Of a stretch of DNA of 64,000 bases, positions 4,373 to 9,196 are shown piece after piece. A program made the position numbers and the translations under genes. Below the pieces are notes generated by a model. The model was not told the origin of the DNA. It saw nothing but the letters and a program-made list of their open reading frames with translations, and did no database searches. Each line of letters starts with the position of its first letter. Positions within the stretch are counted from its first letter, which is position 1. The DNA comes from Subtercola sp. Z020 (lineage in GTDB: Bacteria; Actinomycetota; Actinomycetes; Actinomycetales; Microbacteriaceae): positions 1-64,000 of the forward strand of contig NZ_PSTT01000071.1 in NCBI RefSeq assembly GCF_002931235.1. Direction: 5' to 3'.

Positions 4373-5533
4373 GTGACTTTACGCGTAGGTGTGATCGGTG
4401 GCGGCCAGCTGGCCCGGATGATGATTCCCGCGGCGGTGAACCTCGGCCTCGAGCTCGACGTTCTGGCCGAAACAGAGGGTTCCTCGGCGCGACTGGCCGC
4501 GACGGCGGTGGGCGACTACCGCGACGCCGAGACGGTTCTGCGTTTCGCCGAGACGGTCGACGTGGTCACCTTCGACCACGAACACGTGCCTGAGTCGATT
4601 CTCAGACAACTCGTCGCCGCCGGGCACTCCGTGCAGCCGGGCCCGGATGCGCTGCGCTTCGCGCAGGACAAGCTCGACATGCGCCGGCGCCTGGGTGAGC
4701 TCGGTGTTCCGATGCCCGACTGGGCCGAGGTGCGCAGCGAGCAGGAGCTCGAGGCCTTCCTCACCGACCACGGCGGCGAAGCGGTGGTGAAGACGGCGCG
4801 AGGCGGTTACGACGGCAAGGGTGTGCGCCTCGTCTCCGACGCCGCAGAGGCCGCGGACTGGTTCACGGCGCTGAGCGAAGACGGCCGGGGCGGTGCCCTC
4901 CTCGTCGAGGAGCGCGTCGACTTCTCGCGCGAGCTCGCGCAACTCGTGGCCCGGCGACCCTCCGGCGACACCGCCCTGTGGCCGGTCGTCGAGACGGTGC
5001 AGCGCCGCGGCGTCTGCAGCGAGGTGTTCGCCCCCGCGCCGGGAGTGTCGGCCCGCGTCGCAGAGGCCGCGGCATCCATCGCCACACTGATCGCCACAGA
5101 ACTCGGGGTGACCGGCGTGCTCGCGGTCGAACTCTTCGAGACGACGGATGATCGGCTGCTCGTCAACGAACTGGCCATGCGGCCGCACAACAGCGGTCAC
5201 TGGTCGATCGACGGCGCGGTCACGAGCCAGTTCGAGCAGCACCTGCGGGCCGTGCTCGACCTGCCGCTCGGCGACACCAGCCCCACCGCCCCGGTCAGCG
5301 TGATGGTCAACATTCTGGGTGGCCCGGCCACCGGCACCCTCGCCGACCAGTACCCGCACGCCCTGGCCGACCAGCCGGCGGCGAAGGTTCACAACTACGG
5401 CAAGGAGCCGCGACCCGGCCGGAAGGTCGGGCACGTCACCGTCGTCGGAGACGATCTCGACACCGCGGTCTTTCGGGCGCGGGCGGCCGCAGCCCTGCTC
5501 GGCGCCGACCTCGGAGACGGGGCGGCGTCGTGA
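4373..5533 (+). CDS. purK: 5-(carboxyamino)imidazole ribonucleotide synthase PurK
   Basis: This 386-aa ATP-grasp enzyme uses ATP and bicarbonate to carboxylate AIR to N5-CAIR, the substrate of PurE. GGGQLARM at 9-16 is the N-terminal nucleotide-fold motif, GGYDGKG at 144-150 is the flexible ATP loop, and the C-terminal segment HNYGKEPRPGRKVGH is typical. Translation starts at GTG without a leader. The stop overlaps the next start by 4 nt (GTGA), which couples it to the carboxylase epsilon subunit. Confidence 0.96.
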   Translation: MTLRVGVIGGGQLARMMIPAAVNLGLELDVLAETEGSSARLAATAVGDYRDAETVLRFAETVDVVTFDHEHVPESILRQLVAAGHSVQPGPDALRFAQDKLDMRRRLGELGVPMPDWAEVRSEQELEAFLTDHGGEAVVKTARGGYDGKGVRLVSDAAEAADWFTALSEDGRGGALLVEERVDFSRELAQLVARRPSGDTALWPVVETVQRRGVCSEVFAPAPGVSARVAEAAASIATLIATELGVTGVLAVELFETTDDRLLVNELAMRPHNSGHWSIDGAVTSQFEQHLRAVLDLPLGDTSPTAPVSVMVNILGGPATGTLADQYPHALADQPAAKVHNYGKEPRPGRKVGHVTVVGDDLDTAVFRARAAAALLGADLGDGAAS

Positions 5534-5790
5534 GTGACGCGGAGCGCACCGGCGGCGCAGGGCCCACGGCCCACGCAGGGCCCACCCCCGACGCGCCGGC
5601 CGTCGTCGTGACGACCGGCAACGCGACCCCCGTCGAGATCGCTGCCATCACCGCCGTGATCAGCGGACTGCTCGCCGAAGAGGGCGAGGCGCGCCGCGAG
5701 GAGGAGCCCGTGGGCACGAGCGCGTGGCAGCGCAGCCAGCGCGCGCTTCGCGGCACCCTGCAGCCCGGCCCCGGGCGCTGGGTCGACTGA
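5530..5790 (+). CDS. Acyl-CoA carboxylase epsilon subunit
   Basis: This 86-aa protein matches the small actinobacterial epsilon subunits that bridge the biotin carboxylase and carboxyltransferase parts of acyl-CoA carboxylase. The core GNATPVEIAAITAVISGLL is followed by SAWQRSQR and a GPGRW end, as in the family. The first 25 residues are low-complexity Ala/Gly/Pro. It is translationally coupled to purK through a GTGA overlap. A hairpin-filled gap follows it. Confidence 0.85.
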   Translation: MSDAERTGGAGPTAHAGPTPDAPAVVVTTGNATPVEIAAITAVISGLLAEEGEARREEEPVGTSAWQRSQRALRGTLQPGPGRWVD

Positions 5791-5825
5791 CAGCCCCGTT
5801 CAGCCATCGCCCTCACAGGTGAGCG

Positions 5826-6108
5826 GAAACGTCGATTCCGACGTTTCGAACGAGTGTCCCCCAAAGTGCCGACTAGGCAGATTCCCTGCCTCGCGGCACT
5901 ATTACAAGTGCTTGGTGTCTCTCATTCGAGTTTCACCGCCAGGCGCTCGCTATCTAGGGTAAGTAGGCGAGTGCCTGGGGGCGAGTCACGGTCGTATTCG
6001 GGTTACGACCGTGGCCCGAGAACTGCTGGGGGTTGGCGTTTCGCCGGCCCCCAGTATCTTTCGCAGGCACCGGGGGGTGCCTGGCGGGAGGGGCGTCGCA
6101 GCGCCCCT
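5826..6108 (+). ncRNA. Array of seven consecutive hairpins, possible structured RNA
   Basis: The 325-bp gap between two convergent genes is filled by hairpins at 5826-5847 (9-bp stem), 5865-5900 (7+6 bp with an internal loop), 5939-5978 (12 bp), 5987-6013 (10 bp perfect), 6026-6054 (13 bp), 6064-6083 (8 bp, GGGG loop) and 6089-6108 (7 bp). The three non-Watson-Crick positions (one in the third hairpin, two in the fifth) are G-U in a + strand transcript but C-A on the other strand. That favours a + strand RNA, perhaps the 3' end of the purK transcript. The last hairpin lies 7 nt beyond the stop of the opposing gene and may terminate that operon. No known RNA family is recognised. Confidence 0.55.
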
Positions 6109-6115
6109 GTTCCGC

Positions 6116-7144
6116 CTATTTCGGAATCTCTAGCCACTCCGCCACTTCGGCGTCGTCGCCGCCGTTGCCGAGCACGGCTGCCGTGGGGTCGTCGCCGCCG
6201 CGCAGCCCCACCACTGTGACCGCGGCCGTGCTGCTGTCCACACCCGTCCGCACGATGAGCCGGTCGGCGTGGGAGCGCGAGATCTGGTCGGCCAGCCGGG
6301 AATGGATGCGGGTGCGGGCCCGGTCGGAGAGATCGTCGAGACCGCCGTCGTCGAGCAGCGTCACCTCGATTCCGCGCCGCCTCGCCGCCAGCACCTCTGT
6401 TCGCACGTCTTCGTTCAGCAGTCGACGGCCGCGGATCTCGTCGCGGATCGCCCCCTCGAGGTGCAGGCACTCGCGACGATCCTCCGCGCTGATCGATCCG
6501 CCGGAGTCGACGATGTGGTGCAGCATCGGGCCGGCGACCCTGTTCATGTTGTCGAGGCGGTAGCGCCCCTCGGTCAGCTGCGCCTCCTGCGTCGCGTGCC
6601 AGGCCGCCGCGTCGAGTTCCGCGCGGGCGAAGAGGCTGGTGTCGCGGGTCGCCCGGCCGAGAGCCCGGCTGAGCGCCTGGGCGACGGCGACCCACACAGA
6701 GCTGCCGATCCAGCCCGTCGTGGTGAGGGCGAGCGGGTTGGCCCACACCATGATGAGAACCGCAAGGCCGGCGATGCCGAGCCACGCGAAGGGGGCGCGG
6801 CGCCGCACGGCGGTGATCGTCAGCAGCGTTCCGACCGCCGCGACCGGCCAGGTGGCGTAGCCGTTCGTGACGGAGCCGTCGAGCTGTGACAGCACGAGCC
6901 CCGTGACCGCCATGCTCACGACCACGTTGAACACGGCTATCCAGAGCGGCATCTCGGTGGGGCTGCTCGGCCAGAGGCTCACGGCCGTCGCGACGGCGTA
7001 GAGCACCATCGCCACGATCACCGGCACGGGTGAGCGAGGGGTGTCGAGCGAGTACACCGCGAGAATCAGGTGATACGCCGAGAAGAGCGCGGCGAGCGCC
7101 AGTACAGACCAGCGGGCGATGGCGTTCACGACAGGGGCCGCCAT
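6116..7144 (-). CDS. Membrane protein with degenerate histidine-kinase-like cytoplasmic region
   Basis: This 342-aa protein has about five membrane helices in residues 8-160, then a soluble part with a helical segment containing MLHHIVD and a mixed alpha/beta end. The layout copies a DesK-like kinase, but no N-box asparagine and no DxGxG or GLxxxxER boxes can be seen, so ATP binding is doubtful. It starts 19 nt before the stop of the kinase gene upstream and is surely co-expressed with it. It could be a partner or inhibitor of that kinase, or a signal sensor. The kinase link is an inference from layout and position. Confidence 0.6.
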   Translation of the reverse strand: MAAPVVNAIARWSVLALAALFSAYHLILAVYSLDTPRSPVPVIVAMVLYAVATAVSLWPSSPTEMPLWIAVFNVVVSMAVTGLVLSQLDGSVTNGYATWPVAAVGTLLTITAVRRRAPFAWLGIAGLAVLIMVWANPLALTTTGWIGSSVWVAVAQALSRALGRATRDTSLFARAELDAAAWHATQEAQLTEGRYRLDNMNRVAGPMLHHIVDSGGSISAEDRRECLHLEGAIRDEIRGRRLLNEDVRTEVLAARRRGIEVTLLDDGGLDDLSDRARTRIHSRLADQISRSHADRLIVRTGVDSSTAAVTVVGLRGGDDPTAAVLGNGGDDAEVAEWLEIPK

Positions 7145-8457
7145 TCGATGATGATGGATGTTCCGCCGCCCGGCATCGAGAGCACGCTGACCGTGCCGCC
7201 GACCGCCGCCATGCGTTCGCGGATCGAGACGCGAAGACCGAGGCGGGCGTGCGGAACCCCGTTCACGTCGAACCCGCACCCCGTGTCGGAGACCTGCACG
7301 GTGAGGCCGGACTCCGCGTTGCACTGCACCACCACGGTGCGCGCGACATCCCGCTCCTCGTCGCTCGGGCCGCCGGCTCCCGCAGCGCCCAGCCCGGTTG
7401 CGCCGCTCGCGCCGTTCGCGCTTGCGCCGTTCGCGCTCGCCTCGCTGCCGCCCGCCCCCGCGTGCTGCAGGCTGTTGATCAGCGCCTGCTGGGCCGCGGT
7501 GAAGACGGCCTCGGCGACCGGGCCGGGCAGCCGGGTGTCGTCGACTCCCGCCGACGCGAAGCCGATGCGCGGGCTGAGCAGCCGGGCGGCGTCGGCCAGC
7601 CGGTCGGCCAGCTGGCTCGCCGGCACCTCCTGCTCGGGGTCGAACGCCACGGGCGCCTCCTGCAGCGTCTGCAGGGCCCGTACGCTCATCTCGACGGCCG
7701 CGCGCCTGTCCTCCTCGGTCTCGGCCCGGGCCGCAGCGATGAGGGTGCTGAGCACCGTGTCGTGCACGAGGGCGTCGACGCGGGAGCGTTCGAGTTCTGC
7801 GGCGTGATTGCGCGCGGCCCGCGCGTACTGCTCCATCGCCGTGGACTGGGCGGCATCCACCCGCACGGCGGCCGCACGGATCGAGGTGATCGTCGCGAGC
7901 GCGAAGGCGCCGAGCAGCACGACGTAGAACCCGTCGAGCAGGGCGAGGGCCAGGGGCGCCGCGCCACCGGCCGGCTGCGTACGGATCAGAACGTAGATGA
8001 CGGTGATGTCGACGATGTAGAGCACGGCCCAACGCGGCGAGAACGCGATCACGGCGAAGATCATCGAGATGGTGATGAGGTACCAGAGCCACGGTTGGTC
8101 GGCGACCACGGTCGGCCCGTGCAGCAACCCGGCCGGCCAGAGAGCGAGCGCGACCGTGTAGACCACGGTGAAGATTCCCATCACCACCTTCGCCGGGCGG
8201 GGGCCTCCGCGGTTCAGCGCCGCCAGAACCATCACGACGAACAGCAGACCGAAGAGCACGAGGGCGATCGCCAGCGCGAACCCGTCGTGCAGGTAGACCG
8301 ACGACGCACTCACGGCGGGAATCGTCTGCACGGCGAAGACGAGCGCGAAGATGGCGGCGGCGCGCGTCAGGATGCGCTCGACCCGCGCACGGCTGATCGC
8401 ACCGCGCAGGCGGAGCGGTGTCGGCCCGGCGGCAGCGGTCTGCCTAACGACCGACAT
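7126..8457 (-). CDS. DesK-like sensor histidine kinase
   Basis: This 443-aa membrane kinase has about six helices in residues 30-195, a dimerisation helix with phospho-acceptor His232 in DALVHDTVLS, and a GHKL ATPase domain: N-box AAQQALINSLQHA at 321-333, DTGCGF at 391-396 and LGLRVSIRERM at 406-416. Between the N-box and the next strand is a low-complexity Ala/Gly/Ser insertion of about 35 residues (334-369) not usual in the family. It overlaps the response regulator gene by 14 nt and the downstream membrane protein gene by 19 nt. The signal is unknown. Confidence 0.85.
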   Translation of the reverse strand: MSVVRQTAAAGPTPLRLRGAISRARVERILTRAAAIFALVFAVQTIPAVSASSVYLHDGFALAIALVLFGLLFVVMVLAALNRGGPRPAKVVMGIFTVVYTVALALWPAGLLHGPTVVADQPWLWYLITISMIFAVIAFSPRWAVLYIVDITVIYVLIRTQPAGGAAPLALALLDGFYVVLLGAFALATITSIRAAAVRVDAAQSTAMEQYARAARNHAAELERSRVDALVHDTVLSTLIAAARAETEEDRRAAVEMSVRALQTLQEAPVAFDPEQEVPASQLADRLADAARLLSPRIGFASAGVDDTRLPGPVAEAVFTAAQQALINSLQHAGAGGSEASANGASANGASGATGLGAAGAGGPSDEERDVARTVVVQCNAESGLTVQVSDTGCGFDVNGVPHARLGLRVSIRERMAAVGGTVSVLSMPGGGTSIIIEWRPLS

Positions 8458-9196
8458 TGCTCACATCGTCGATGGCGAGGATGCCGTCTTCGACGGCCCG
8501 TCTCAGCAGGTCGACCTTGGTCGGGGCCGGCCTGCCCACCTCGACGTACTTCGCGCGGACCCGGTCGAGGTACTCCCGGGCCGTCGACGGTGCGATGCCG
8601 AGCTGGGCGGCCACGGCCTTCAGCGGCAGACCGGAGGCGTAGAGATGCAGAACGTGCTGCTCCCGTGGGCCGAGCTGGGCCCTGGCGAACTCCTGGTCGG
8701 CGTCGATCGCGCTGGCCCACTCGAGGTTGTTCAGCACGTCGCCCCGCGCCACGCTCGCGATCGCCGCCATCACGATGCTGGTCGCGCTGGTCTTCGGGAT
8801 GACGCCGGCCGCCCCTGCCGCGAGCGCCTCACGGATGCTCGCGGTGCGATCGGCGATGCTGTGCACGAGCACGGCCGCTCCCGTCGCCCGGGACCGCAGC
8901 ACGTTGTCGGTGACGCTCGACCCGTCGCCGAGGCTCAGGTCCATCACGATCACGCCGGCGCGGTTGCCGCCGAGACTCTGCAGCAGGGCATCCACCGTCG
9001 CACCGGAGCCGACGACCTGGTAGCCGGCGTCGAGGCAGGCGGCGCGGATGCCGAGCAGCACGGACTCGTGGTCGTCGACGATGCCGACCCGCACCTGGGC
9101 GGCTTCGGCGGCGGCCGTCGTGGCTTCGGCGGCGGCCTCGGCTTCGGCGGCGGCTTCGGGGTTCGGGGTACCGACCATCGTGCCCATCACCCCCAC
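8444..9196 (-). CDS. NarL/FixJ-type response regulator
   Basis: This 250-aa regulator has a receiver domain with acidic pair D41-D42, phospho-acceptor Asp86 in VMDLSLGD and Lys135, then a LuxR-type helix-turn-helix (about 174-235, with LGPREQHVLHLYASG). It begins with an unusual Ala/Glu-rich stretch (residues 14-33) before the receiver core. The first gene of the three-gene locus, it is the evident partner of the kinase downstream. Candidate starts are GTG at 9196 and 9190 and ATG at 9187; all keep the same domains. Confidence 0.85.
   Translation of the reverse strand: MGVMGTMVGTPNPEAAAEAEAAAEATTAAAEAAQVRVGIVDDHESVLLGIRAACLDAGYQVVGSGATVDALLQSLGGNRAGVIVMDLSLGDGSSVTDNVLRSRATGAAVLVHSIADRTASIREALAAGAAGVIPKTSATSIVMAAIASVARGDVLNNLEWASAIDADQEFARAQLGPREQHVLHLYASGLPLKAVAAQLGIAPSTAREYLDRVRAKYVEVGRPAPTKVDLLRRAVEDGILAIDDVSNVGR

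Follow-up and report, generated by a model that had tools for sequence, protein, structure and literature searches.

A putative small regulatory RNA gene with its own promoter block, downstream of accE in Microbacteriaceae

What fills a gap between two convergent genes that folds into one strong local stem after another? The question is posed by a stretch of 64,000 nucleotides from Subtercola sp. Z020, referred to here as the window, in which accE follows purK and a gap lies between accE and a convergent gene that we call X. The original prediction read this gap as seven back-to-back hairpins that might represent a structured RNA, a 3' end processed from the purK mRNA, or a protein-binding scaffold. 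What emerges from comparison with relatives looks like an undescribed RNA family, a small regulatory RNA gene with its own promoter.

Composition of the gap

The propensity of the gap to fold is strong. Folded as + strand RNA, 5826-6108 has a predicted energy of -168.9 kcal/mol, whereas its dinucleotide shuffles average -116.4 +/- 5.0 (z -10.46) and none of 200 does as well; the - strand reaches -144.7 (z -7.68). The strong stems that had been described are thus present, seven of them, accompanied in the MFE structure by an eighth, weak hairpin (5910-5931). Two other parts of the description did not survive. The structure contains 11 G-U pairs, where only three non-Watson-Crick positions, all G-U, had been reported, and the seven hairpins do not form one element, as what different genera share is confined to about 5854-6060 and leaves out the first hairpin and the last two. 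Based on 75 homologous loci, on which the division into parts rests, the gap is composed of an accE-side hairpin, a predicted promoter, an RNA of about 150 nt and two hairpins found in close relatives only. The features of the gap and its borders are as follows.

5530-5790, + strand: accE, acyl-CoA carboxylase epsilon subunit (Pfam PF13822, E 3.2e-15)
5826-5847, 5865-5900, 5910-5931, 5933-5984, + strand: the first four of the eight MFE hairpins
5985-6015, 6017-6063, 6064-6083, 6089-6108, + strand: the last four of the eight MFE hairpins
5826-5847, + strand: 9-bp hairpin between accE and the promoter block (MFE), outside the stretch aligned among genus members
5856-5874, + strand: conserved promoter block, a putative activator site (consensus GTCCYCCNAAATGACGACT; here GTCCCCCAAAGTGCCGACT)
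5865-5900, + strand: hairpin over the promoter block and spacer (MFE), upstream of the predicted RNA start
5897-5902, + strand: -10-like element CACTAT (nAnnnT), 22 bp after the block
about 5908-6060, + strand: small RNA of about 150 nt, ends predicted (match to covariance model R1, covariation, fold z -8.02)
6064-6108, no strand assigned: two hairpins beyond the RNA (MFE), aligned only in four other genus genomes
6116-7072, - strand: gene X, a membrane protein, the usual downstream neighbour, convergent to the RNA

All 12 genomes of the window's genus, its own included, match the segment 5790-6125; of the eleven besides its own, four align as far as query position 318-319 and seven as far as 266-274. 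The hairpin at 5826-5847 is probably a terminator on the accE side and no part of the RNA, and the pair at 6064-6108 probably terminates the convergent gene. Such hairpins at both outer edges of a convergent gap, which may be terminators, would suit a mere terminator cluster or a DNA element. We give that explanation hardly any credence: the invariant loop, compensatory changes and G-U bias described below indicate an RNA.

Conservation, covariation and anatomy

DNA matches to 5848-6060 occur in 192 of 398 family genomes, and the best-scoring ones beyond the genus cover mostly 5855-6005 or part thereof. The covariance model R1, built from 31 loci, matches 194 of 299 family genomes and 55 of 85 genera, as a rule with a single hit in each genome. 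Of 297 genomes sampled across the order, 11 match, all in Microbacteriaceae; as far as sampled, the predicted RNA gene appears specific to this family. Within the window the model matches 5908-6022 with E 6.4e-26, a locus that belongs to its own seed. Because of its stricter filters, the covariance-model search misses distant forms. A promoter block and a P3-like hairpin with the loop variant CUCGGGU stand in the same place in three genomes of one genus (G044, G118 and G302) that have no R1 match. This divergent form is found at loci L162, L163 and L164, in genomes of about 3.1-3.2 Mb.

The Rfam search suggested with the original prediction was carried out with Rfam 15 and returned 0 matches at E up to 1 for window positions 5000-7000. 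Seven homologous loci gave a single match, which does not fall in the RNA and scores 27 bits where the cut-off is 80 (E 0.21). Among the titles and abstract openings of the papers listed in our literature searches, we found no description of this RNA. Here, then, is a covarying RNA gene spread across 55 of the 85 sampled genera of an actinobacterial family, for which we found neither an Rfam entry nor a published account.

Covariation in relatives, one of the two points on which the original prediction had staked itself, was looked for and found. There were originally 81 matches, and 75 loci were kept after removal of the partial L078 and of five opposite-strand matches (L027, L035, L036, L103 and L087). 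Alignment A4, made with MAFFT unguided by structure, holds 71 of these 75; it omits L011, L053 and L062 as near-duplicates and L113 for an insertion. Changes on both sides affect 29 of 36 pairs (18.0 +/- 2.0 in shuffles) and 187 cells (58.1 +/- 6.1), and the covariation score is 0.271 (0.151 +/- 0.005); 0 of 500 shuffles attain the pair count, the cell count or the score. Relatedness inflates such counts, and the control that preserves it, in which pairing partners are shifted by 1 to 3 columns, lowers every covariation measure. The tested structure came from a set of sequences that overlaps A4, and RNAalifold on the 71-sequence alignment retains only 20 pairs, those of P3 and the top of P2.

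The substitutions also carry a strand signal. In P3, the longest conserved stem, non-Watson-Crick cells comprise 71 G-U against 6 A-C; over all helices, including the poorly aligned lower P2 stem, they are 162 against 90. The excess of G-U over A-C identifies the + strand as the RNA, so the strand argument first drawn from the window itself holds among its relatives. Together, the invariant loop, the compensatory changes and the G-U bias support a structured + strand RNA over a DNA element. Family-wide conservation and a predicted dedicated promoter point the same way, and of the identities originally offered the structured RNA is the one upheld.

Taken alone, the predicted RNA (5908-6062) has a fold z of -8.02. 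It is predicted to contain the following stem-loops.

5914-5937, + strand: P1, GGUG...CACC (RNAalifold on alignment A2)
5939-5978, + strand: P2, hexaloop AGGGUA at 5956-5961 (RNAalifold, covariation)
5982-6018, + strand: P3, 15 bp, heptaloop UUCGGGU at 5997-6003 (covariation, A4)
6025-6062, + strand: P4, a probable terminator hairpin at 6025-6055 with a weak U tract here (MFE)

P3 is the most regular of these in A4, with 97.0% of cells paired and changes on both sides in 13 of its 15 pairs. Its loop UUCGGGU is invariant in 71 of 71 aligned sequences, while the 15-bp stem below it varies compensatorily. P1 has 89.4% of its cells paired in the same 71 sequences, is dropped by RNAalifold on that alignment and is replaced by an alternative fold in the window's own MFE structure. 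The lower helix of P2 is 59.7% paired in A4 and poorly aligned. By pattern match, the P2 loop reads AGGGUA in 59 of 75 loci and AGGGAA in one; A1 is absent from the other 15. In two genomes of one genus (loci L166 and L167) the GGGU loop of P2 is missing and P3 is retained. A conserved linker, UGGGGGCG, directly follows P2 and precedes P3, the two being spaced by 3 columns in the consensus structure.

Further contacts within the RNA were considered and set aside by eye: the P2 and P3 loops are not complementary and would not kiss, and pairing of an upstream CCCCC with the GGGGG linker shows no consistent covariation. At L027 and L062 a GGAGG linker faces CCTCC and CCCCC.

The hairpin at 6025-6055 is probably the terminator of the RNA. 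It is followed by at least 6 T in 6 of 12 genus members, with a weaker tract in this genome; a simple consensus scan of window positions 5700-6300 found no terminator and no sigma-70 promoter. Distances between anchors spread over all three reading phases (29, 28 and 18 of the 75 loci), which makes a coding role for the RNA improbable. Most loci do contain short frames (up to 39 codons), but these share no phase, and a small peptide was rejected on that account.

Promoter block, gene neighbourhood and candidate regulon

In 73 of the 75 loci the best-scoring copy of the promoter block ends 31-33 nt upstream of the start of the RNA model; at L092 no block can be recognised (9 of 17). A scan of the window with up to 3 mismatches returned 2 matches, with 0.25 expected on average, and the one at the RNA locus has 0 mismatches. 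The sequence of the spacer between block and RNA varies among loci, and nAnnnT stands at offset 22 after the block in 62 of 75. In 42 of 75, GT[CA]C[CT]CC is present once more, 9-14 bp upstream of the block and most often at 11 bp. The half-sites GTCC...GGAC of the block are suggestive of a NarL-type regulator. At L011, positions 1695-1770 hold two tandem 38-nt repeats with palindromic GGGGGACATGAAATGTCCCCC, which overlap the promoter block and extend upstream of it; similar dyads occur at L007, L008 and L010.

This arrangement bears on whether the RNA might instead belong to the purK-accE mRNA, as its structured 3' UTR or as a tail processed from it. The gene order invites such a reading, 70 of the 75 loci having an AccE frame upstream in the same orientation. 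We nevertheless regard it as very unlikely, and the processed purK 3' end of the original prediction is not supported either, since a promoter block stands at a fixed spacing before the RNA itself and the same spacing recurs before other genes. In addition, the distance from AccE to the RNA, where AccE is upstream, ranges from about 70 to 660 nt. AccE lies on the opposite strand in 4 of 75 loci and was not found in one. In three of the four (L009, L011 and L012, all from the window's genus) it is downstream of the RNA, which suggests a local inversion that left the RNA intact; in the fourth, L102, it is about 2 kb off. A stand-alone, separately controlled, structured + strand RNA gene is, by these comparisons, well supported.

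On the other side lies gene X. Among 299 family genomes, X is present in 223, the RNA in 194 and both in 192, an association inflated by shared ancestry; X alone occurs in 31, and the two genomes with the RNA and no X have weak matches. X was seen downstream on the opposite strand in 10 of 12 loci inspected and is not among the frames shown for L073 and L082, whose genomes (G151 and G019) nevertheless have X near the RNA. The protein looks like a sensor kinase in which no catalytic (ATPase) domain is recognised, and it has no match in Pfam or NCBIfam. Beyond X lie two signalling genes.

7126-8457, - strand: histidine kinase, on the same strand as X (PF02518, E 7.5e-06)
8444-9196, - strand: NarL/LuxR-type response regulator (PF00072 and PF00196)

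The best NCBIfam match of the kinase is MacS-type, at 36 bits against a cut-off of 300. The response regulator is a candidate activator of the RNA promoter, with gene order as the link between the RNA and these two-component genes.

Does the block serve other genes? A looser pattern applied to the 12 genus genomes returned 31 sites. Twelve belong to the RNA locus, and the remaining 19 are no excess over a reversed control pattern (31). A tighter pattern, applied to 27 genomes (25 with a model match and 2 with the divergent RNA form), returned 35 sites in 23 genomes; setting aside the 22 of the RNA locus leaves 13, where the control gives 1. In 30 genomes mostly without the RNA there were 13 sites, 2 at a divergent RNA locus and 11 elsewhere, barely more than the 7 of the controls. 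The -10 spacing provides the stronger evidence. At offset 22, fixed beforehand by the RNA loci, nAnnnT follows 17 of 31 block sites outside the RNA locus; these 31 comprise 18 of the 19 from the genus (one being without a locus) and the 13 from the 27-genome set. When orthologues and repeats are merged, 12 of 22 groups have the motif, whereas at other offsets the number averages 1.08 and never exceeds 3. Given the lack of a site excess in the genus, only the -10 spacing and the 27-genome count speak for a regulon. The recurrence of the same spacing before other genes makes the RNA probably a member of an activator-dependent regulon.

The frames that follow these sites encode a secreted SLH-domain protein, a LysM lipoprotein, an OmpR-type response regulator and a GDSL/GAF protein, and several further ones carry signal peptides (by eye). 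The secreted SLH-domain protein is represented at L143, L136, L139 and L152, with the SLH match in L143. There the block stands about 33 nt before the frame and is followed by a TAnnnT -10 element at offset 21; this gene likely belongs to the same regulon as the RNA. At L138 and L148, both in genome G003, the block begins a stretch whose two copies are nearly identical onward, possibly a repeat or mobile element.

Possible mode of action and comparison with known RNAs

The interpretation that we hold with rather more confidence than doubt is that of a Microbacteriaceae-specific, activator-controlled small RNA acting in trans through its GGGU-bearing loops. An activator, perhaps the adjoining response regulator, would bind the promoter block and switch the RNA on jointly with an envelope or secretion regulon, and the RNA would then act through the two GGGU-bearing loops of P2 and P3. 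The P3 loop UUCGGGU appears to fit YUNR, the U-turn pattern known from the loops of antisense RNAs. Base pairing is the favoured mode because the P3 loop, even as the variant CUCGGGU, keeps this pattern; targets would bear ACCC(G) stretches. A protein partner of the loops is the main alternative to base pairing. Given the promoter spacing in common with other genes and a loop that does not vary, regulator, regulon and partner can be put to the test directly.

Two-component-controlled, trans-acting sRNAs are exemplified by MicF and CpxQ. Like them, the RNA described here has a predicted promoter of its own, an apparent regulon with secreted and envelope proteins, and adjoining signalling genes. 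It differs in sequence and structure and in being actinobacterial, and its regulator and targets are putative.

The pair of adjacent stem-loops also brings to mind ANTAR-titrating RNAs. By this analogy, which we consider unlikely to apply, P2-P3 would be bound by a PdtaR-type ANTAR response regulator and would sequester it. ANTAR-target RNAs are described as a pair of neighbouring stem-loops, joined by a linker of 2-25 nt and each having a hexaloop with A1 and G4 (PMC8164766). Trans-acting titrating RNAs are known in Enterococcus and Listeria, and PPE1-5' of M. tuberculosis belongs to the same group, for which an actinobacterial precedent is reported (PMC8131098). Like EutX, Rli55 and PPE1-5', the present RNA is stand-alone and has adjacent stem-loops with short loops, the first of which (AGGGUA in the window) is a hexaloop with A1 and G4, as in 60 of 75 loci. 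All 24 genomes examined for ANTAR domains encode them, and the genome of the window has 5 matches. However, P3 has in place of a second such hexaloop the UUCGGGU heptaloop, which lacks A1 in 71 of 71 sequences and is closed by A-U in 70 and by G-C in 1, and we rejected membership in the ANTAR-target class on this ground. The ANTAR domains, moreover, are equally present in tested genomes without the RNA and so do not discriminate.

6S-type RNA is a long rod with a central bubble. That our candidate is the family's abundant RNA-polymerase-binding RNA, a functional analogue of 6S, Ms1 or CoRP, seems to us highly improbable. It is, like these, a conserved stand-alone RNA in actinobacteria, where 6S is described as hardly known and one abundant RNA-polymerase-associated RNA per species has been proposed (PMC11077062); the Ms1 carrier table of PMC9130861 names no Microbacteriaceae. 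Yet its predicted structure, about 150 nt of individual hairpins in series, is no such rod, Rfam offers no match, and the neighbours here, accE and X, differ from the HAD hydrolase and oxidoreductase that adjoin Ms1. Structure and neighbourhood led us to reject membership in the 6S or Ms1 family. A wider version of the idea would have it fill the place of the missing RNA-polymerase-associated RNA, or global regulatory RNA, in Microbacteriaceae, representing a new GGGU-two-stem class co-activated with the envelope regulon by the adjoining two-component system; we regard this as a long shot.

6C RNA (RF01066) is likewise an actinobacterial stem-loop sRNA with a homopolymeric run in its loops. 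The 6C loops are C-rich, whereas those described here are G-rich. A role as a 6C sponge, with G-rich loops pairing with the C-rich ones, was considered and rejected, as RF01066 has no match in 12 of 12 genus genomes and none in the window. Matches to 6C below the family cut-off occur in three other genomes of the family (G012, G015 and G017).
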